Assembly (NCBI RefSeq): GCF_024972755.1
Contig: NZ_CP087724.1
Location: 1,240,001 to 1,304,000, forward strand
From: Halanaeroarchaeum sp. HSR-CO
Lineage (GTDB): Archaea > Halobacteriota > Halobacteria > Halobacteriales > Halobacteriaceae
DNA length: 64,000 nucleotides
Direction: 5' to 3'
The notes beneath the pieces were generated by a model that had not been told where the DNA came from, did not search any database, and worked only from the letters and a program-made list of their open reading frames with translations. Shown here one piece after another: positions 46,515-59,663 of the stretch (within the stretch, counting starts at the first letter, position 1; the number at the start of each line of letters is the position of its first letter). A program made the translations under genes and the position numbers.

Positions 46515-46877
46515 GCGGTCGTCGTTGGTCTCGGTTCTGCTCACGGACGGCGAGACACTGATCCCGTCGGTCATCGAGTCGGGTTCGACGTCGACGACCT
46601 GTCCGGTGAGTTGCACCTCGCCAAAATCGACCACGGCGGTGATGTACGGGGCGTCGTCGATGAACCGCGGTGTCGGGACGTGGACGACGGTGTGCGCGAC
46701 GACCTCGCCGGTCTCCGGGAGGGCCCTCTCTGTCAAGTCCCGATCGCCGCAGTGTGGGCAGACGCGCCGGGGTGGTAGTGAGCCGTGTCCCTCCGCGCAC
46801 TGGAGGTAGTAGCCCGCTCCGTCCTCGAGCGAATCGACGAAGTCGTCGTAGCCAGCATCGCGGACGCGTTCGGTCAT
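46491..46877 (-). CDS. DUF35 OB-fold/zinc-ribbon protein partner of thiolase
   Basis: 128 residues. A zinc rubredoxin-like knuckle (LQCAEGHG, VCPHCGDR) precedes an OB-fold with YITAVVDFGEVQLTGQVV. Such DUF35 proteins lie beside archaeal thiolases and HMG-CoA synthases and, in characterised Methanothermococcus complexes, hold the thiolase and synthase together and pass the CoA. Here it overlaps the thiolase by four bases (ATGA), with the DUF35 gene second. No HMG-CoA synthase gene is nearby, so its partner here is only the thiolase. Confidence 0.9.
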   Translation of the reverse strand: MTERVRDAGYDDFVDSLEDGAGYYLQCAEGHGSLPPRRVCPHCGDRDLTERALPETGEVVAHTVVHVPTPRFIDDAPYITAVVDFGEVQLTGQVVDVEPDSMTDGISVSPSVSRTETNDDRLIVFESR

Positions 46878-48040
46878 TCCGCTACCTCCAGCACGTGGAC
46901 CACCGTGCTCGCGACGGTCCCACCAGCGTTGTGTGTGACGCCGACGGTGGCGTCCTCGACGTATTCGCTGTTGTGATGCTCCCCGCGGAGCAACCGCGTC
47001 ATCTCGACGACCTGTGCAGCGCCGGTGGCTCCCACCGGATGGCCCTTGGCCTTGAGACCGCCGGAGAGGTTGACCGGGACGTCCCCGTCCGGAAGCGTAT
47101 CGCCGCGCCGGGCCGCTCCGATCCCTTCGCCGGGATCGAACAGGCCGAGCGCCTCGAGTGCGAGTACTTCTGCGATGGTGAAACAGTCGTGGACTTCGGC
47201 GAGGCCCACGTCGTCGGCGTCGATGCCGGCCTCTGTAAAGGCTTCCTCGGCGGCATCGGCCGCCGCCGGCGTCTCGGTCATCGTCGTCCTGTCCTGGAGC
47301 GCCATTTTGTCGCTACCCTGGCCGGTACCCGTGACGGCGACGGCAGCATCGAGGTCGTGGTCTTTGGCGTACTTCTCGCTCACCACCACGAGGGCCGCCG
47401 CCCCATCGGTGATCGGGCAGGCGTCGTACAGGTGAAGCGGTTCGGCGACCGGCGGGGAGTCCAGAGCGTCCTCGATATCTATCTCGTAACGGAACTGGGC
47501 GTAGGGATTGTCGACGGCGTTCGCGTGGTTTTTCACCGCGATGTGTGCGAGATCCTCGCGACCGCCCCCGTACTCCTCGAAGTACGCGTCGGCCATCAGG
47601 CCGTACGCACCAGGGAACGTCATCCCCGCCCGGACCTCGTAGAGGTCGTCCGCGGCGATGGCCAGCGACTCGGTCGTCTCCGCGGTCTCGAGGTTGTTCA
47701 TGCGCTCGGCGCCGCCGACGAGCACGACGTCGCTCTCACCCGACCGGACGTTCTTCACGGCCTCGCGGACGGCCACGCCGCTGGACGCACACGCGCTCTC
47801 GTACCGGGTGGCCGGCGCGTCGATACCCAGGGCCTCGGCAGCCAGCGGCCCCATGTGGCCCTGATGCTCGGCGAGTTCTCCCATGAAGTTTCCGTAGAAG
47901 ACCGATGCCACGTCGTCGGGGTCGATACCCGCATCGTCGAGCGCGGCGAGCCCCGCCTCGGCGAAGAGATCGCGACTCGTCCGTTCGGGATGTTCGCCGA
48001 AGTGGGTCAGTCCCACGCCAGCGATTCGCACGGAATCCAT
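46874..48040 (-). CDS. Thiolase-family acetyl-CoA C-acyltransferase
   Basis: 388 residues. The active cysteine is in YESACASSGVAVREAV; the conserved histidine and general-base regions are AEVHDCFTIAEVLALE and AKGHPVGATGAAQVVEM. The SCP2-type thiolase features (lack of a short N-terminal loop) fit archaeal enzymes. It either cleaves 3-oxoacyl-CoA in beta-oxidation or condenses two acetyl-CoA for isoprenoid synthesis. DUF35 coupling favours the condensing role, whereas the nearby acyl-CoA and 3-hydroxyacyl-CoA dehydrogenases favour degradation. Confidence 0.93.
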   Translation of the reverse strand: MDSVRIAGVGLTHFGEHPERTSRDLFAEAGLAALDDAGIDPDDVASVFYGNFMGELAEHQGHMGPLAAEALGIDAPATRYESACASSGVAVREAVKNVRSGESDVVLVGGAERMNNLETAETTESLAIAADDLYEVRAGMTFPGAYGLMADAYFEEYGGGREDLAHIAVKNHANAVDNPYAQFRYEIDIEDALDSPPVAEPLHLYDACPITDGAAALVVVSEKYAKDHDLDAAVAVTGTGQGSDKMALQDRTTMTETPAAADAAEEAFTEAGIDADDVGLAEVHDCFTIAEVLALEALGLFDPGEGIGAARRGDTLPDGDVPVNLSGGLKAKGHPVGATGAAQVVEMTRLLRGEHHNSEYVEDATVGVTHNAGGTVASTVVHVLEVAE

Positions 48041-48096
48041 AGATTCACCTACGGAAAGAACGGGTAAAAGGGATACGAAAATCCTGTCGACGTCGG

Positions 48097-49245
48097 TCAG
48101 TCCAGGAGTTCGTTGGCGATAGTGTTCCGGAGGACCTCGCTCGTCCCCTCGTAGATCTCGTTGAGTTTCGCATCCCGGTAGAACCGTTCGACGGGGAAGT
48201 CTTTCGTGTACCCGTACCCGCCATGGATCTGGATCGCCTCGTTCGCGACCTCTCTGCTGACCTCCGAGGCGTGCAGTTTGGCCTGTGCCGCCTCCTTGAT
48301 GAACCGCTCGCCCTCGATCTTGTTGTGGGCGGCCTGGTGCATCAACAGCCGCGCCGTCTGAATCTTCGTGTCCATGTCCGCGAGTTTGTGTTGAATCGAC
48401 TGAAACTCGCTGATGGATTGGCCGAACTGCTCACGTTGCTGGGCGTATTCGAGGGCTTCGTCGAGGGCCGCCTGGGCGATGCCGACACTCCGTGCGGCGA
48501 TGGTGATCCGGCCGGCGTTGAGCGTCTCGAGTGCCTGTATGAATCCGTCACCCTCCTCGCCGAGCAGCCGGTCTGCGGGGAGACGGAGGTCGTCGAAGCG
48601 GAGTTCCGCGGTGGGACACCCCTTGTCGCCGAGTTTGTGCTCGGTGTTCTCGACGGAGAAGCCATCGTCTTCCTCGGGACGGACGACGAACGAGGAGATT
48701 CCATGGTGGCCCGCCTCGGGGTCGGTCCTCGCGAACACCGTAACGGTCTCCGCGATCGATCCATTGGAGATCCAGAGTTTTCCCCCATCGAGGACGTACT
48801 CGTCTCCCTCCCGTTCGGCCGTCGTGGTCATCGCGGGAACGTCGGAACCCGCACCCGCCTCAGAGAGTGCGAAGGCACCGATGTCGTCCCCGCGATTGAG
48901 TGGGGAGAGGAACTTCTCTTTTTGCGACTCGGAGCCGTACTGGTAGAGCATGTTGCCCGCGAGGCTCGTGTGTGCGGCGACGATGGTGCCGAGACCGCCA
49001 CTCCCCCTGGCGATCTCCGCGAGTGCGAGCGCGTAGGCGTGGTAATCGAGGCCGGCCCCGTCGTACTCCTCGGGGAACGGCATTCCCATCAGGCCCAGTT
49101 CGCCCATCTGCTCGATGAGGTCCCACGGCACCTCGTCGGTCTCGTCGATGTCGGCGGCGACCGGAACGACCTCTTCGTCGACGAATTCCCGGACCATCTC
49201 CCGAATCTGGCGCTGTTCGGGGGTCAGACTGAGATCCATATCCAA
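48097..49245 (-). CDS. Acyl-CoA dehydrogenase
   Basis: 382 residues. Motifs include [20 protein letters not shown] (substrate and FAD binding), [32 protein letters not shown] and [25 protein letters not shown], with the catalytic glutamate in YEGTSE. It introduces the first double bond of acyl-CoA, passing electrons to ETF. The chain-length range cannot be read. It lies between the thiolase and the 3-hydroxyacyl-CoA dehydrogenase on the same strand, all three serving fatty-acid degradation. Confidence 0.96.
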
Positions 49246-49381
49246 AATCTCCCACCGTCTTTCCTTTAGTTTTCCTGTCCTGTCCCGAGGTCTGGAGATC
49301 CATGCGACCGTGACACGACCCGTCCCCGGATCGGTGTCCTGGCAGGTTCCAGCAACCTATCTGGGCCGTCCGACGACCGGG

Positions 49382-50239
49382 TCAGTAGTCGTAGAAGCCG
49401 GTTCCTGTCTTCTTGCCGAGGTCGCCGGCCTCGACTTTTCGTTTCAGGAGATAGGCGGGTTTGTACCGGTCGCCGAGTTCTTCGTGGAGTGTTTCGCTAG
49501 CGTCGAGACAGATGTCGAGCCCGATGTGGTCGGCCAGTTCGAGCGGTCCCATCGGAACGTTCGTCCCCAGTTTCATGCCCCGGTCGATGTCTTCTTTCGA
49601 CGCCACGCCCTCGTCGTAGGCGCGGATCCCCTCGTTGATCCACGGGATGAGGATCCGGTTGGTGACGAACCCGGGTCTGTCGTCGGATTCCCAGGTCTCC
49701 TTCCCGAGGTCCGCGGCGAGGTCGTGGGCGAACTGCACGACGTCGTCGTCGGTCTTCTCGCCCACGACGAGTTCGACGCCGTCCATGATGGGGACCGGGT
49801 TCATGAAGTGCAATCCGACGACGAGTTCGGGCCGGTCGGTGACGCTCGCGATGGCGGTGATCGAGAGCGTGCTCGTGTTCGTCGCGAGGACGACGTCCTC
49901 GGGCACGACGTCGTCGAGGTCACTGAAGATATCCTGTTTCACTTCCATGTCCTCCAGAGCGGCTTCGACGATCACGTCTGCCGCTGCGAGGTCGGACAGT
50001 TCGGTCGTCCCGGTGATCGAATCGACCACGTCGTCGGCTTCGGACTCGGTCATCGCCTCCTTGGTCACGAACCGATCGAGACTGGAACGAATCGACTCGA
50101 ATCCGCTGTCGATGAAGTCCTGCTCGATGTCGCGCAGTATGACGTCGTATCCGCTCGCCGCCGCCACCTGGGCGATGCCGCTGCCCATCGTTCCCGCACC
50201 GACGACGCCGATCGTGTCAACTGATTGGAGTCCGCGCAT
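49382..50239 (-). CDS. 3-hydroxyacyl-CoA dehydrogenase
   Basis: 285 residues. The N-terminal NAD Rossmann domain begins IGVVGAGTMGSGIAQVAAASG; the catalytic region has LATNTSTLSITAIA, GLHFMNPVPIMDGVELV (His) and DRPGFVTNRILIPWINEGIRAYDEG. It oxidises (S)-3-hydroxyacyl-CoA, or reduces acetoacetyl-CoA. The ATG at 50239 is the family start; upstream in-frame codons are not conserved and overlap the divergent HhH gene region. It is the third gene on this strand after the acyl-CoA dehydrogenase. Confidence 0.96.
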   Translation of the reverse strand: MRGLQSVDTIGVVGAGTMGSGIAQVAAASGYDVILRDIEQDFIDSGFESIRSSLDRFVTKEAMTESEADDVVDSITGTTELSDLAAADVIVEAALEDMEVKQDIFSDLDDVVPEDVVLATNTSTLSITAIASVTDRPELVVGLHFMNPVPIMDGVELVVGEKTDDDVVQFAHDLAADLGKETWESDDRPGFVTNRILIPWINEGIRAYDEGVASKEDIDRGMKLGTNVPMGPLELADHIGLDICLDASETLHEELGDRYKPAYLLKRKVEAGDLGKKTGTGFYDY

Positions 50240-50322
50240 ATCGGGGAGTTGTGGGGGCCGAGCCCTTAGCACTGCCGAAAACGGGAAACACTGAAGCACC
50301 TCGGGACGTATCGCCCCATACG

Positions 50323-50949
50323 GTGACATCCCGGAACGTCCCCGACGACCTCCAGGCGTTGAAGTTCATCGGTCCGGCCACGGCTGACGTCCTCGAGGAG
50401 GCGGCGATCACGCCCACGGACGTCGTCGAACGGCGGGTCTCTCACGCCGAGATGATCCGCTCGGGCGTCAATCCCGGTGTGGCGGCTCGCATCCGGCGCG
50501 AACATTCGCTCGCCTGGTCGATGTCCGGTGGCGAGGATCTCGACCAGCGGGCCGAGCAGGTTCGCGGCCTCCAGGACGACGAACGCGCCTGGGTCGCCGC
50601 GAGTTCGGGCTCCTGGGAGGATGAATCGCCGACCGAGACGGCGAGTACCGACGGCCGGGGTGACGACATCGATGCGGAATCGCTCTGGCAGTCCCGGTCG
50701 TGGCCGACCCATCCCGCGACCGACGACGTTCAGACCGACGAAATTGCGTGGCGAGAGGCCAGTCTTCCGACGCCAGTCTCGGATCTCGAGGAGATCGATC
50801 AGACGGCGGCCGTCCTGCTCGCCGATGCCGGTATCACGTCGGTTCGCCGACTCGCGACCGCGAACCCCGAGCACGTGGGGGAATCCCTCGATATCGACGT
50901 CGAGACGATACGTGTGTGGCGGGACGCGGCGCGGTCCCGAATACGCTGA
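50323..50949 (+). CDS. Helix-hairpin-helix protein with two modules, unknown function
   Basis: 208 residues from a GTG at 50323. Residues about 1-50 (VPDDLQALKFIGPATADVLEEA) and 150-205 (LEEIDQTAAVLLADAGITSVRRLATANPEHVGESL) are two helix-hairpin-helix-like modules of the DUF4332/RPA-type class, joined by an acidic, disordered linker. Such proteins may bind DNA or other proteins. The start is uncertain, because an in-frame GTG at 50251 exists. I do not know a specific function. Confidence 0.7.
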   Translation: MTSRNVPDDLQALKFIGPATADVLEEAAITPTDVVERRVSHAEMIRSGVNPGVAARIRREHSLAWSMSGGEDLDQRAEQVRGLQDDERAWVAASSGSWEDESPTETASTDGRGDDIDAESLWQSRSWPTHPATDDVQTDEIAWREASLPTPVSDLEEIDQTAAVLLADAGITSVRRLATANPEHVGESLDIDVETIRVWRDAARSRIR

Positions 50950-51008: not shown

Positions 51009-51018
51009 CTTATTATAC
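51009..51018 (+). promoter_or_regulatory. TATA element of the aldolase-FBPase operon
   Basis: CTTATTATAC centred about 27 bp before the aldolase ATG at 51040. Confidence 0.65.
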
Positions 51019-51039: not shown

Positions 51040-51834
51040 ATGGTACCTCTTGCAGATTCGCCGTTGGCGCGGGACGGCAAGATACTGATCCTCGCGTACG
51101 ACCACGGGTTGGAACACGGTCCGACCGACTTCGAATCGGTCCCAGAGACGATGGACCCGGAGACCGTCTGGGACATCGCCACCCACGACGCAGTGACCTC
51201 CTTTGCGGTCCAGAAGGGCATCGCCGAAGCGTACTACCCCTCCTACGAGGACGACGTCAGTCTGTTGGCGAAGGTGAACGGGACCTCGAACCTCTGGATG
51301 GGCGAGTACGACAGTGCGGTCAACTGGACGGTCGACAATGCCGCCGACCTCGGTGCCGATGCCATCGGCTTCACCCTCTACGGCGGGTCGAACAACGAGG
51401 TCGAGATGGCCGAGGAGTTCCGCGACGCCCAGGAGAGCGCCCGCGAGCACGACCTCCCGGTAGTGATGTGGTCGTACCCGCGCGGACAGGGCGTGAAAAA
51501 CGACACCAAAGATGGCGTCATCGCCTACGCCTCCCGGTTAGCGCTCGAACTCGGCGCCGACGTGGCGAAGATCAAGTACCCGGGGAGCCCCGAGGCGATG
51601 GAGTGGGCGGTCGACGCCGCCGGCCCCGTCAAGGTCGTGATGAGCGGTGGGTCGAAGACCGACGACCGTTCGTTCCTCGAGAGCGTGGACGCGGTTCTCC
51701 AGGCGGGCGGCAGTGGACTCGCGGTCGGGCGGAACGTCTGGCAGCGCGAGAACTCGATGGCGATGCTCGACGCCCTCGAGGCCCTCATCTTCGAGGAGCA
51801 GAGCGTCGACGAGGCCCTCACGTATCTCGAATGA
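51040..51834 (+). CDS. Fructose-bisphosphate aldolase, archaeal class I
   Basis: 264 residues of the FbaB/DhnA type. ILAYDHGLEHGPTDFE is the start of the TIM barrel, KVNGTSNLW and GFTLYGGSNNEVEMAEEF follow, then the Schiff-base lysine loop VAKIKYPGSPE, and the phosphate-binding GGSKTDDRSFLES. It cleaves or forms fructose-1,6-bisphosphate. The FBPase gene overlaps its stop by four bases (ATGA), so the two act together in gluconeogenesis. A strong TATA element precedes the gene by about 27 bp. A DhnA-like 2-amino-ADTH synthase is an alternative, but the context favours aldolase. Confidence 0.94.
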   Translation: MVPLADSPLARDGKILILAYDHGLEHGPTDFESVPETMDPETVWDIATHDAVTSFAVQKGIAEAYYPSYEDDVSLLAKVNGTSNLWMGEYDSAVNWTVDNAADLGADAIGFTLYGGSNNEVEMAEEFRDAQESAREHDLPVVMWSYPRGQGVKNDTKDGVIAYASRLALELGADVAKIKYPGSPEAMEWAVDAAGPVKVVMSGGSKTDDRSFLESVDAVLQAGGSGLAVGRNVWQRENSMAMLDALEALIFEEQSVDEALTYLE

Positions 51835-52661
51835 GCGTCAGTGAGATCCTGGACGTCGTCGCCACGGCGGCGCCGGAGATCCGCTCCGGGCTACCGGGCC
51901 GACGCACGAAGATCGACGAACAGAACCGCAGCGGTGAACGCCAGCTCGCCGCCGACGTCTGGGCCGACGAACTCCTGGGCGACCGTCTCGCCGCGGTCGA
52001 TTCGGTCGGCGCCTACGCCAGCGAAGAACGAGACGAAGTCGAGAACGTCGGCGACGGCTACCTCGTGGCGGTCGACCCACTCGATGGATCGTCCAACCTG
52101 CGATCCAACAACCCGATGGGGACGGTCGTCGGAGTCTACGACGACGACCTCCCGACGACTGGCCGTTCGCTCGTCGCCGCCGCATTCGTGCTCTATGGGC
52201 CGATCACCACGATGGTGGTGGCTCGGGACGGATCGACCACCGAATACGTTGTCGAAGCGGGAGACCGCAGGGACGTGGGCGAAATCGCCCTCCCCGAAGA
52301 GCCGACGGTCTATGGATTCGGAGGGCGGGTCCCCGACTGGCCGGCGGGCGTCGCCGACTACGTCGAGACCATCGAAGGGGAGTTGAAACTCCGATACGGC
52401 GGGGCGATGATCGCGGACGTGAGCCAGGTACTCACCTACGGCGGCATCTTCGCCTACCCGATGTTGCAATCGCGTTCCTCGGGAAAACTCCGGATCCTGT
52501 TCGAGGGCGCGCCGATAGCGTACATCGTCGAGAGCGCCGGTGGCTCCTCCTCGGATGGGACACGGTCGTTGCTCGACGTCGAGGTGACCGAGGTGCATCA
52601 ACGGACCCCGGTTTTCGTCGGCAACGCCGACCTCGTCGACCGTCTCGAGGCGACGGTGTAA
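51831..52661 (+). CDS. fbp: Fructose-1,6-bisphosphatase, class I type
   Basis: 276 residues with the lithium-sensitive phosphatase fold. The metal-binding motif VAVDPLDGSSNLRSNNPMG and the sugar/phosphate regions LRYGGAMIADVSQVLTYGG and IAYIVESAGGSSSDGTRSLL match FBPase. It dephosphorylates fructose-1,6-bisphosphate in gluconeogenesis. Coupled to the aldolase (ATGA) and followed 60 bp later by RuBisCO. An inositol monophosphatase activity is possible but the VDPLDGSSN form favours FBPase. Confidence 0.95.
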   Translation: MSVSEILDVVATAAPEIRSGLPGRRTKIDEQNRSGERQLAADVWADELLGDRLAAVDSVGAYASEERDEVENVGDGYLVAVDPLDGSSNLRSNNPMGTVVGVYDDDLPTTGRSLVAAAFVLYGPITTMVVARDGSTTEYVVEAGDRRDVGEIALPEEPTVYGFGGRVPDWPAGVADYVETIEGELKLRYGGAMIADVSQVLTYGGIFAYPMLQSRSSGKLRILFEGAPIAYIVESAGGSSSDGTRSLLDVEVTEVHQRTPVFVGNADLVDRLEATV

Positions 52662-52721
52662 CCGACGCCCGGATCGATTCCCCGAACGTTCTTTTCACTC
52701 GCCGACGTATCTCCTGGGGTA

Positions 52722-53969
52722 ATGCCCGGGATATCGTACGATGACTTCGTCGACACGGACTACGAACCGACCGGCGGCGATCTCGTCTGTGAGTTCGCGG
52801 TCGCTCCGGCCGACGGACTCGACATGGTGGACGCGGCCGGTCGCGTGGCTTCCGAGAGTTCGAACGGGACGTGGGCGACCCTCGACGTTACCGACGAGAT
52901 AACCGACCTGAGTGCGACGGCCTTCGAAATCGGCGACGGGGAGATAACGGTCGCCTATCCACTCGAGCTGTTCGAGGGGGGTAACATGGCGCAGGTGCTG
53001 TCCTGTATCGCTGGGAATATTATGGGGATGAAGGCGGTCGACACCATCCGTCTCCGGGACGTGGAGTGGCCGGCGGCCCTCGTCGATTCTTTCAGAGGCC
53101 CGCAGTTCGGCTCGTCGGTGAAGTCACGATTTCTCGACGCTGCCGACCGCCCGGCCCTGGCGACGGTACCGAAACCCAAGGTGGGACTCTCCGCGGCCGA
53201 CCACGCCGAGGTCGGCTATCGGGCGTGGGTCGGTGGTATCGACCTCCTCAAGGACGACGAGAACCTGACGAACCAGTCGTTCAACGGGTTCGAGGAGCGG
53301 GTGAAACGTGCCTTCGAGATGCGTGACCGCGCCGAGGAGGAAACTGGTGACAGGAAGGACTACCTCGTAAATATCACCGCCGACGTCGACGAGATGAAAC
53401 GCCGGGCGGACCTCGTCGCCGATCAGGGCGGTCGCTTCGTCATGGTCGACGTCATCACGACCGGGTGGGCGGCCGTCCAGTCGGTCAGAGAACACACCGA
53501 GGACCTCGGGATGGCGATCCACGCCCACCGCGCGATGCACGCAGCGTTCGACCGTATCGAATCACACGGGGTATCGATGCGAGTCCTCGCGCAGGTCGCA
53601 CGGCTCGTCGGTGTCGATCACATTCACACGGGAACCGCGAACCTCGGCAAACTGGATAACGAGGACACGGCCGGAATCAACGACTGGCTGGCCAGCGATC
53701 TGTTCGGCATGAACGACGTGGTGCCAGTCGCCTCCGGCGGCCTGCATCCCGGGACGGTCGAACCGCTCCTGGACCGCATCGGGACGGAAGTCATCGTTCA
53801 GGCTGGTGGTGGCGTCCACGGTCATCCCGACGGCACCGAGGCGGGCGCTCGGGCGTTCAGACAGGCCGTAGACGCGTATCAAGACGGGATCGAACCGACC
53901 GAATATGCGGACGATCACCACGAACTCGCGGTGGCACTCGACCAGTGGGGAACCCATTCCCCACGATAG
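52722..53969 (+). CDS. rbcL: Ribulose-1,5-bisphosphate carboxylase, archaeal (form III) type
   Basis: 415 residues, full-length. All catalytic residues are present: KPK at 151-153, the carbamylated lysine with metal ligands KDDE at 177-180, HAHR at 267-270, H302 and K310 in HTGTANLGK (loop 6), S338 in VASGG and AGGG at 361-364. N99 in the GNIMG loop is present as well. So it is a real carboxylase, not a RuBisCO-like protein. Archaeal form III enzymes turn RuBP from AMP breakdown into two 3-phosphoglycerates; no AMP phosphorylase is in this window. It starts 60 bp after fbp and may have its own weak TTCTTTTC promoter. Confidence 0.96.
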   Translation: MPGISYDDFVDTDYEPTGGDLVCEFAVAPADGLDMVDAAGRVASESSNGTWATLDVTDEITDLSATAFEIGDGEITVAYPLELFEGGNMAQVLSCIAGNIMGMKAVDTIRLRDVEWPAALVDSFRGPQFGSSVKSRFLDAADRPALATVPKPKVGLSAADHAEVGYRAWVGGIDLLKDDENLTNQSFNGFEERVKRAFEMRDRAEEETGDRKDYLVNITADVDEMKRRADLVADQGGRFVMVDVITTGWAAVQSVREHTEDLGMAIHAHRAMHAAFDRIESHGVSMRVLAQVARLVGVDHIHTGTANLGKLDNEDTAGINDWLASDLFGMNDVVPVASGGLHPGTVEPLLDRIGTEVIVQAGGGVHGHPDGTEAGARAFRQAVDAYQDGIEPTEYADDHHELAVALDQWGTHSPR

Positions 53970-54169: not shown

Positions 54170-54985
54170 ATGGGTTTTTCTGACGACACCAACCATGGCA
54201 GTATGATGGGTTGTGACGATGTCGAGTGTTTGATCGGTCTCCTCTCTCGTCGGTACGACCTTCTGGAAGCGCTCACCGACGACCCTCGAACGAAAAATGA
54301 ACTCGAATCGTCCCTCGGCGTCTCTCGATCGACCATCGACCGGGCAGTGCGCTCACTCGAAGAAGAGTCAATCGTCGTTCGGGGAATGGATGGGGTCAGG
54401 TTGACGCTGCTCGGACGCATCGCACTCGACGGGTACCGCCAGTTCAGGACCGGTCTGGAGGGGCTCGATCTGGCCCGTCCGCTCGTCTCTTCACAGGAAT
54501 CCGACGAGAAGATTCCGTTCGAACTGTTCGAAAGAGCGGACATCATCAACGCCAATCGGCAGTCGCCACATCGTCCGATCGTCGGCTTACAGCAGTTCCT
54601 CGAGGACGCATCGACGGTGAAGAGCATCGCGACGGCCCTCCTTCCCGAGTACGTGGAATTCTACCACAACCAGGTCGTCGACCACGAGATGGATGTGGAA
54701 CTCGTCGTCCTGTCGTCGGTTCTCGACGAACTGCTCGCGACCTACTGGGAATCCATGAACGATGCCCTGTCCACGGGGCGGCTCACCATCTTCGAGACGT
54801 CCGCGGAACCGCCGTACAGCCTGAAGATCGGGGAGACGGACACGACGGAGGTCTCCATAGTCACGTACGGAGATCAGGGTGTGACCGGGTTCATCCGCTC
54901 GGAGAGCCGCGTAGCCGTCGAGTGGGCACAAGAGCTCTATCAGCGGACGAAAGCGAACGCCACGCTCGTTGCGCCGATGGACTGA
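54170..54985 (+). CDS. Winged-helix regulator of the DUF1724/FilR1 type
   Basis: 271 residues. An N-terminal winged helix (LLEALTDDPRTKNELESSLGVSRSTIDRAVRSLEEE) is followed by a C-terminal sensor region (about 105-270) that resembles the FilR1/DUF1724 domain: SVLDELLATYWESMNDAL, YGDQGVTGFIRSESRVAVEWA. This class is widespread in haloarchaea and methanogens; the best-known member controls metabolism in Methanothrix. The ligand is unknown. It lies 200 bp after rbcL and could regulate the aldolase-FBPase-RuBisCO cluster or itself. The start at 54170 fits the TATA spacing; ATG codons further on are possible. Confidence 0.82.
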   Translation: MGFSDDTNHGSMMGCDDVECLIGLLSRRYDLLEALTDDPRTKNELESSLGVSRSTIDRAVRSLEEESIVVRGMDGVRLTLLGRIALDGYRQFRTGLEGLDLARPLVSSQESDEKIPFELFERADIINANRQSPHRPIVGLQQFLEDASTVKSIATALLPEYVEFYHNQVVDHEMDVELVVLSSVLDELLATYWESMNDALSTGRLTIFETSAEPPYSLKIGETDTTEVSIVTYGDQGVTGFIRSESRVAVEWAQELYQRTKANATLVAPMD

Positions 54986-58040: not shown

Positions 58041-59663
58041 ATGTCAGTAGATTACGATGCCGCCGTCGACCAGTTCGACTGGGACATCCCCGAGGACTTC
58101 GCCATTCCCTCGGTCGTCGAGTCACATGCGGCGGAGTTCGGCGACCGAACGGCCCTTCGGTTCCTGGACCGAGCCGGACGACGCGAGACTCTGACGTTCG
58201 GAGAACTGCGGGATGGAATGAATCGCTTCGCGAACGCCCTGGAATCGATGGGCGTGGGGAAGGGTGACCGTGTTTTGCACCTATTACCCCGCCATCCCGA
58301 CGTTTTCGCCATCCAGTTAGGGGCCTTGAAACGTGGGGCACTGCTCGTCCCCTCCTCCGAGATGCTCCAACCGAACGACATCGAGTTCAGGGCAACCGAT
58401 TGCGATGCGACGACCATCGTCGCCCACGAATCCCTCACCGGGATGGTCGATCCTATCCTCGAAGACACACCCATCGAGCGCACAATCGTCGTCGACGGCC
58501 ACGTCGACGGCTGGGAACGATACGAGGACCTCGTTTCGGATCGATCGACGACCCACGACGGCCCGTCCCTTTCTGCACAGGACCCGATGTCGATCAATTA
58601 CACCAGCGGAACGACCGGAAAACCCAAACCGGTACTGCATCGCCACCGATGGCTGTACGCGTTCAGTCGCGTGAACGGGCCGTACTGGTGGGGTGTCTCG
58701 GTCGACGACGACCTGTCGGACGAACTGCTCTGGGCAACCACTGGCACCGGGTGGGCGAAGTGGTTCTGGAGTCCCGTCGGAGTCGGATTGGCGACGGGTG
58801 CGACACAACTCGTCTACGAGGGAGAGTTCGAACCCGACATCTTCCTTGACGTGATGGAGTCGGAGGGGGTTACGCGTCTCTGTGCCGTTCCAACCCAGTA
58901 CCGTATGTGGTCTCAGGAGGATCTGGACTCGTGGGACCTGGCGTTGACCGACGCGCTCTCCGCCGGGGAGCCACTCAACGTCGAACCGATCGAAGCGTTC
59001 GACGACGCATTCGGTGTCACACCCCGTGACGGCTATGGCCAGACCGAGACCGTCGCACTCGTCACGAACTATCCCGGTATCGACGTGAAACCTGGGAGCA
59101 TGGGGAAGCCGACACCTGGTCTCGAGACGACCATCATCGACACGCAAGACGACGAGGAGGTCGAACCGGGTGAGATCGGTGAGATAGCCGTCCCGGTCGA
59201 CAATCCGGGAATCTTCGATGGATACTACGAGAAACCGCACCTCGACGATAAGACGTTCCGGGGCGAGTACTATCGAACAGGCGACCTGGCACGGCAGGAC
59301 GAGGACGGCTACTTCTTCTTCGAGGGACGCGCCGACGATATCATCATCTCCTCTGGGTACCGGATCGGTCCATTCGAGGTGGAAGACGCCCTCGTCAGCC
59401 ACGATGCGGTCTCCGAGGCCGCAGCCGTCGCGAGTCCGCACGATGATCGCGGGAACGTCGTCAAGGCCTACGTGGTACTGACCGAGGAGTACGAACCGAG
59501 CGAGTCACTGGTGGACGAGATTCAGGAATTCATGAAGTCGGAGACGGCACCCTACAAATATCCGCGCCGCATCGACTTCGTGGACGAACTCCCGAAGACC
59601 TCCAGTGGGAAGATCCGTCGGATCGAACTCCGCTCTGCAGAGACGGATCAGTTCGGTGGCTGA
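58041..59663 (+). CDS. AMP-dependent acyl-CoA synthetase
   Basis: 540 residues of the ANL superfamily. Key motifs are INYTSGTTGKPKPVLH (P-loop), DGYGQTETVALVTNYPG, YRTGDLARQDEDGYFFFEGRADDIIISSGYRIGPFEVE and the C-terminal lysine in KTSSGKIRR. The acyl-AMP intermediate is converted to acyl-CoA. The sequence is closer to medium-chain or aryl acyl-CoA synthetases (ACSM-like) than to acetyl-CoA synthetase. The substrate chain is unknown. The ATG at 58041 has a TATA element 27 bp before it; an in-frame ATG at 58014 is less likely. It could feed the beta-oxidation genes at 46-50 kb. Confidence 0.94.
   Translation: MSVDYDAAVDQFDWDIPEDFAIPSVVESHAAEFGDRTALRFLDRAGRRETLTFGELRDGMNRFANALESMGVGKGDRVLHLLPRHPDVFAIQLGALKRGALLVPSSEMLQPNDIEFRATDCDATTIVAHESLTGMVDPILEDTPIERTIVVDGHVDGWERYEDLVSDRSTTHDGPSLSAQDPMSINYTSGTTGKPKPVLHRHRWLYAFSRVNGPYWWGVSVDDDLSDELLWATTGTGWAKWFWSPVGVGLATGATQLVYEGEFEPDIFLDVMESEGVTRLCAVPTQYRMWSQEDLDSWDLALTDALSAGEPLNVEPIEAFDDAFGVTPRDGYGQTETVALVTNYPGIDVKPGSMGKPTPGLETTIIDTQDDEEVEPGEIGEIAVPVDNPGIFDGYYEKPHLDDKTFRGEYYRTGDLARQDEDGYFFFEGRADDIIISSGYRIGPFEVEDALVSHDAVSEAAAVASPHDDRGNVVKAYVVLTEEYEPSESLVDEIQEFMKSETAPYKYPRRIDFVDELPKTSSGKIRRIELRSAETDQFGG

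Follow-up and report, generated by a model that had tools for sequence, protein, structure and literature searches.

The gene cluster considered here lies in a stretch of 64,000 nucleotides (the window; G000:C1:1240001-1304000) within the 2.79 Mb genome of Halanaeroarchaeum sp. HSR-CO (G000), a second Halanaeroarchaeum genome beside G001, within the Halobacteriaceae. It sets genes for an aldolase (fba) and a fructose-1,6-bisphosphatase (fbp) next to a gene for ribulose-1,5-bisphosphate carboxylase (RuBisCO; rbcL), an arrangement that resembles a fragment of the Calvin cycle. The parts list of the genome and the gene order among its relatives instead point to ribose salvage: very probably, a gluconeogenic fba-fbp pair stands here beside a form III RuBisCO that would serve the salvage of nucleoside ribose, in an inherited neighbourhood and with rbcL probably under a promoter of its own. 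The features of the locus are as follows.

51010-51018, strand +: putative promoter element of fba-fbp, TATA-like, lying 22-30 bases upstream of the ATG of fba
51040-51834, strand +: fba, class I fructose-bisphosphate aldolase (family scans)
51831-52661, strand +: fbp, class 1 fructose-1,6-bisphosphatase (family scans, PF18913/PF00316)
52681-52699, strand +: promoter-like 19-base block CCCGAACGTTCTTTTCACT, 23-41 bases before the rbcL ATG, identical in G001
52722-53969, strand +: rbcL, form III ribulose-1,5-bisphosphate carboxylase, 415 aa (curated model and active-site residues)
54170-54985, strand +: HVO_A0261_N/FilR1_middle (DUF1724-type) transcriptional regulator (family scan)

The coordinates of fba and fbp overlap by four bases (ATGA), and rbcL starts 60 bases past the fbp stop, exactly as an earlier reading made from the letters alone (the sequence-only reading) had placed them. 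The RuBisCO, which that reading had described as an intact form III-type enzyme with all of its catalytic residues kept, passes the form III model (TIGR03326, 615 bits, cut-off 497.45) and finds its best PDB match in 2cwx (424 bits), presumably a Pyrococcus RuBisCO. It retains all 19 of the positions that we take to be the active-site and substrate-contact residues in spinach numbering, including K177, the carbamylated lysine, in GGIDLLKDDEN. Across 113 aligned rows, 17 of these 19 positions are invariant and the other two have one exception each; the rows are those of a RuBisCO tree made by a quick method, for which rows with fewer than 380 aligned residues were removed (116 kept, 113 after identical ones were removed). 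The rbcL of the window is intact, and we consider it probably functional. The fba product belongs to the DeoC-type class I aldolases (PF01791, 139 bits, cut-off 23.8) and falls under every NCBIfam cut-off (best NF005556, 202 of 241; class I fructose-bisphosphate aldolase NF040816, 196 of 430), and it carries its label because of family resemblance and its pairing with fbp.

Elsewhere in G000, we find candidates for the supply of ribulose-1,5-bisphosphate (RuBP). The gene for ribose-1,5-bisphosphate (R15P) isomerase (e2b2; G000:C1:2407515-2408411; TIGR00511, 471.9 bits, cut-off 314.1) forms one strand-wise run with genes for an ATP-dependent ribose-1-phosphate (R1P) kinase (L104:6644-7573; NF053626, 422.3 bits, cut-off 330; NF041134, 103 bits, under cut-off) and, adjoining the kinase, for a uridine-phosphorylase-like protein (L104:5833-6570; TIGR01718, 223.2 bits, under the cut-off of 280.3). 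A gene for a DUF63 membrane protein (L104:7597-8415) also lies within the run. In the route that we propose, the phosphorylase would split nucleosides to give R1P, the kinase would use ATP to turn R1P into R15P, and the isomerase would convert R15P to RuBP, which RuBisCO would join with CO2 to form two molecules of 3-phosphoglycerate. These would enter central metabolism via phosphoglycerate kinase (PGK), which we also find in G000, and might or might not pass onward to hexose, a conversion that is chemically possible. The pentose-rescue route that the sequence-only reading had raised is borne out to this extent, with the isomerase and the ATP-R1P kinase both present and the route itself known from haloarchaea (PMC9700705, in the portion drawn on here).

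No phosphoribulokinase (PRK) or AMP phosphorylase had been visible in the window, and both absences extend to the whole of G000; of the genes looked for beyond the window, e2b2 is thus present, while PRK and AMP phosphorylase (deoA) are not found. For AMP (nucleoside monophosphate, NMP) phosphorylase, whose cut-off of 535 is passed by 18 of 146 genomes, the best match in G000 is a partial one of 29 bits over 122 of 500 positions, which we rejected as probably another phosphoribosyltransferase. The single PF00485 match is a uridine kinase and was rejected as a PRK, with 299 bits against the uridine kinase model NF004018 (cut-off 180) and 114.7 of 236 against the PRK subfamily NF005655. No transketolase exceeds its cut-off in G000 (two partial matches, 21.3 and 20.8 bits, cut-off 22), and Aldolase_II (PF00596, FucA-type class II), the family of ribulose-1-phosphate (Ru1P) aldolase, has no match in G000 or G001.

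On these assignments, G000 has the gene set of the haloarchaeal pentose bisphosphate pathway in its 'RuBisCO without NMP phosphorylase' variant, described by Sato et al. 2022 (PMC9700705, Fig. 5b), who count it in 11 of the 63 halophilic archaea that they cover. Both share a form III RuBisCO, an R15P isomerase and an ATP-R1P kinase, and both lack an NMP phosphorylase; the difference, as far as the cited portion goes, is that rbcL of the window stands beside fba-fbp rather than alone or near e2b2. The AMP/pentose bisphosphate pathway of Thermococcus kodakarensis likewise has an R15P isomerase feeding a form III RuBisCO, whereas G000 lacks AMP phosphorylase and has an R1P kinase of the ATP-dependent rather than the ADP-dependent family. 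With the non-carboxylating pathway of Halobacterium salinarum, G000 shares the upstream half as far as RuBP, but it has a RuBisCO and no Aldolase_II gene. The RuBisCO of the window is a further instance of a described haloarchaeal pathway, set in an inherited neighbourhood.

The sequence-only reading had also entertained a partial Calvin-like route, in which the cluster would supply the lower half of a CO2-fixing reductive cycle, perhaps aided by CO oxidation. An intact RuBisCO, fructose-1,6-bisphosphatase, aldolase and PGK are all present in G000, CO-oxidising Halanaeroarchaeum strains are known (PMC11332174, as excerpted), and G000 encodes an enzyme that could be a source of CO2:

G000:C1:861826-863538 (L230:6734-8713), strand -: anaerobic CO dehydrogenase catalytic subunit (TIGR01702, 594.6 bits, cut-off 478)

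The same genome, however, has no PRK, no transketolase over cut-off and no AMP phosphorylase; with neither PRK nor transketolase, a net CO2-fixing cycle would therefore have no visible regeneration of RuBP. The oxidative conversion of hexose to pentose releases one CO2 per turn, and regenerating pentose by that path would lose the CO2 gained, so that no net fixation would result. Moreover, G001 has the same cluster with no CO dehydrogenase match, and the rbcL cluster and CO dehydrogenase are therefore not tied to each other. A Calvin-like role is, on this evidence, very improbable. We regard as extremely improbable a carbon-saving cycle without PRK, in which a pentose-phosphate mutase would feed the ATP-R1P kinase, the kinase would take the place of PRK, and RuBisCO, read through from fba-fbp, would re-assimilate CO2 from CO dehydrogenase into hexose. 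In a search of 27 genomes, Prismane-family matches were seen in G003, G009, G012, G028 and G035, and none in G001.

The distribution of the supply genes was followed in a sample of 146 genomes, G000 counted in, in which our counts for fba, fbp, rbcL and R15P isomerase, including those of gene order, are counts among the matches listed. Of 46 genomes matching rbcL, G037 and G118 (34-35% identity) were set aside as RuBisCO-like, leaving 44 with a form III enzyme. R15P isomerase exceeds its cut-off in 37 of these 44 and in 37 of the 102 others, a comparison that is uncorrected for relatedness. Three of the seven exceptions (G034, G049 and G060) have a divergent, sub-cut-off R15P isomerase within 1.6 kb of rbcL, a fourth (G036) has a copy of 204 bits on another contig, and the remaining three (G012, G040 and G070) are incomplete assemblies. 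A separate collection of 80 named rbcL loci includes 63 from haloarchaea, and 25 of these 63 have e2b2 no more than 6 kb from rbcL. An Aldolase_II gene is present in all 37 genomes that have R15P isomerase but no RuBisCO, versus 11 of the 44 form III genomes. Although Aldolase_II is a wide family whose members here are putative orthologues, the split would fit the published alternatives of a RuBisCO and a Ru1P-aldolase route, extending that dichotomy to a larger genome set. Four rbcL-bearing Halobacterium genomes (G011, G016, G020 and G022; L108-L111) also carry Aldolase_II, and the two known sinks for RuBP may coexist there.

The position of rbcL beside fbp had suggested to the sequence-only reading that 3-phosphoglycerate from RuBP flows straight into hexose synthesis. 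A rival explanation along these lines is that fba-fbp-rbcL is a functional operon, in which the 3-phosphoglycerate made by RuBisCO would be drawn into hexose and salvage and gluconeogenesis would be switched on together. Such an operon would be favoured by the common strand and 60-base spacer of the window, by the short spacers that recur in G001, G003 and G009, and by the standing of fbp as a gluconeogenic control point that TrmB activates in Haloarcula hispanica (PMC10817205, in the part used here). The pairing of fba with fbp is, however, independent of rbcL: of the 124 genomes with both genes among the matches listed (22 of the 146 are not in both lists), 111 have the two side by side, made up of all 38 that carry rbcL and 73 of the 86 that do not. 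The pair is therefore an ordinary haloarchaeal gluconeogenic unit that does not depend on RuBisCO. Conversely, rbcL lies within 850 bases of fbp in only eight of the 44 form III genomes; the 36 in which it does not include a few cut contigs, namely G070 and G140, whose flanks end near a contig end, alongside G012 and G069 with partial matches. Among the 80 named loci, fba-fbp lies within 6 kb of rbcL only in L126, which is G016 again.

The eight genomes with rbcL beside fbp, together with G006, form one RuBisCO clade within the Halobacteriaceae (support of 99 in the quick tree), and because the adjacency is confined to this clade, it most simply arose once. Within Halobacterium, a DNA-repair gene intervenes between fbp and rbcL:

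L108:7323-8009, with equivalents in 12 Halobacterium loci: SRAP, SOS-associated peptidase (PF02586, 216.5 bits)

The order fba-fbp-SRAP-rbcL-FilR1 is found in all four rbcL-bearing Halobacterium genomes, and fba-fbp-SRAP-FilR1 with no rbcL in all eight of the other Halobacterium genomes inspected (G005, G014, G017, G018, G019, G021, G023 and G025; G024 was left out). SRAP is missing from the site in the two Halanaeroarchaeum genomes, where fbp and rbcL are 60 (G000) and 43 (G001) bases apart, and both SRAP and the regulator are missing from it in G003 and G009 (genus g3), while in G006, SRAP, rbcL and FilR1 are located away from fba-fbp. The simplest reading is that an ancestral order was shared and that SRAP, rbcL or the regulator was then lost; rbcL would stand next to fbp in the window as a remnant of the old order fba-fbp-SRAP-rbcL-FilR1 of one Halobacteriaceae clade, after the loss of SRAP in Halanaeroarchaeum and in genus g3. 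In the open-licence PMC literature, we found no published description of an fba-fbp-rbcL cluster in haloarchaea.

The spacer between fbp and rbcL also bears on the operon. The 19-base block listed above is shared by the spacers of G000 and G001, a length that none of 5000 shuffles equalled, and it sits immediately before rbcL. We compared A+T content upstream of the ATG for 25 of the 44 rbcL genes, namely those with flanking sequence to hand in which the start could be read; L123/G137, whose available frame opened past the ATG, was left out. The 16 genes outside the clade are AT-rich 25-33 bases before the ATG (0.74 A+T versus 0.43 over 90 bases; 0 of 5000 circular shifts), and in the nine genes of the clade a peak of lesser strength stands in the same place (0.65 versus 0.38; 1 of 5000 shifts). 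An AT-rich stretch at that distance is expected of leaderless archaeal promoters, and the 19-base block coincides in position with the peak seen before stand-alone rbcL genes. Because of the conserved block and the AT-rich peak at -33 to -26, it is most likely that a separate promoter within the spacer serves rbcL, and some transcription may also run on from fba-fbp.

Given the independence of the fba-fbp pair, the position of rbcL away from fbp in most genomes, the intervening SRAP gene and the promoter-like block, we think a functional operon unlikely, and a flow to hexose is weakly indicated by adjacency. Outside one clade the cluster is not conserved, and the promoter-like element suggests a regulation of RuBisCO apart from fba-fbp, two outcomes that the sequence-only reading had named as speaking against its proposal. 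We instead read the cluster as lineage synteny and not a Calvin-like operon, because fba-fbp is common without RuBisCO, SRAP intervenes in relatives, the regulator is kept where rbcL is absent, and the spacer holds a promoter-like element. Several points weigh against ribose salvage in an inherited neighbourhood. Four genomes, belonging to two genera, have kept fbp and rbcL some 43-60 bases apart, as would likewise be expected of a selected operon; the rbcL spacer has a weak TATA-like element (TTTTCA), and the promoter is a putative one. The link between rbcL and R15P isomerase takes no account of shared descent, and the nucleoside substrate rests on a phosphorylase score below its cut-off (223.2 of 280.3).

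The regulator, whose FilR1_middle domain we take to be the former DUF1724, had been proposed as a possible control of the cluster. Its presence downstream stands, 200 bases past rbcL in the window, and it directly follows rbcL in six further genomes of the clade, one of which is G006, whose rbcL is apart from fba-fbp. As a dedicated RuBisCO switch of the locus, however, it is unlikely: it is retained at the site, behind SRAP, in all eight rbcL-less Halobacterium genomes inspected, and we find no significant match to it in G003 or G009, both of which bear rbcL. The regulator is syntenic, and its presence is not tied to rbcL. Halobacterium thus offers a natural presence/absence series, with a fixed site that has or lacks rbcL and keeps the regulator, suited to testing what RuBisCO does.

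Upstream of the cluster, a TTATTATAC-type stretch recurs at the same distance before fba in most of 11 fba loci compared, and the TATA-like element at 51010-51018 may be the promoter of fba-fbp. Four genomes of one genus (G044, G107, G136 and G141) have one TAG within each fba match; this may reflect a broken copy or an end effect. A search of the window for TACT-N7/8-GAGTA, which we take to be the TrmB motif, finds none near fba; the single match in the window is at 59476-59491, with 0.18 expected. The sections of PMC10817205 used here describe the gluconeogenic fba-fbp genes of Halobacterium and Haloarcula as TrmB-controlled, and the window shares with them the tandem of class I aldolase and class 1 fructose-1,6-bisphosphatase genes, whereas it differs in having rbcL directly after and no TrmB-type motif near fba. 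Natronoarchaea are described (PMC6176080, as excerpted) as having a gene cluster for fructose-bisphosphate aldolase and fructose-1,6-bisphosphatase and, separately, a form III RuBisCO with AMP phosphorylase.

The conserved block begins with one further gene:

50251-50949, strand +: DUF7409/helix-hairpin-helix protein, first gene of the conserved block (PF24158, 77.5 bits)

This gene lies upstream of fba in G000, G001, G003 and G009 and in all 12 Halobacterium loci inspected. On the opposite strand beside the fba-fbp block, at 46874-50329, are genes that by eye are thiolase-like and acyl-CoA dehydrogenase-like, together with a 3-hydroxyacyl-CoA dehydrogenase gene. An opposite-direction 3-hydroxyacyl-CoA dehydrogenase gene upstream is also a feature of paaH-fbp in Har. 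hispanica (PMC10817205, same sections), and the gene holds this position in most of the Halobacteriaceae loci inspected.

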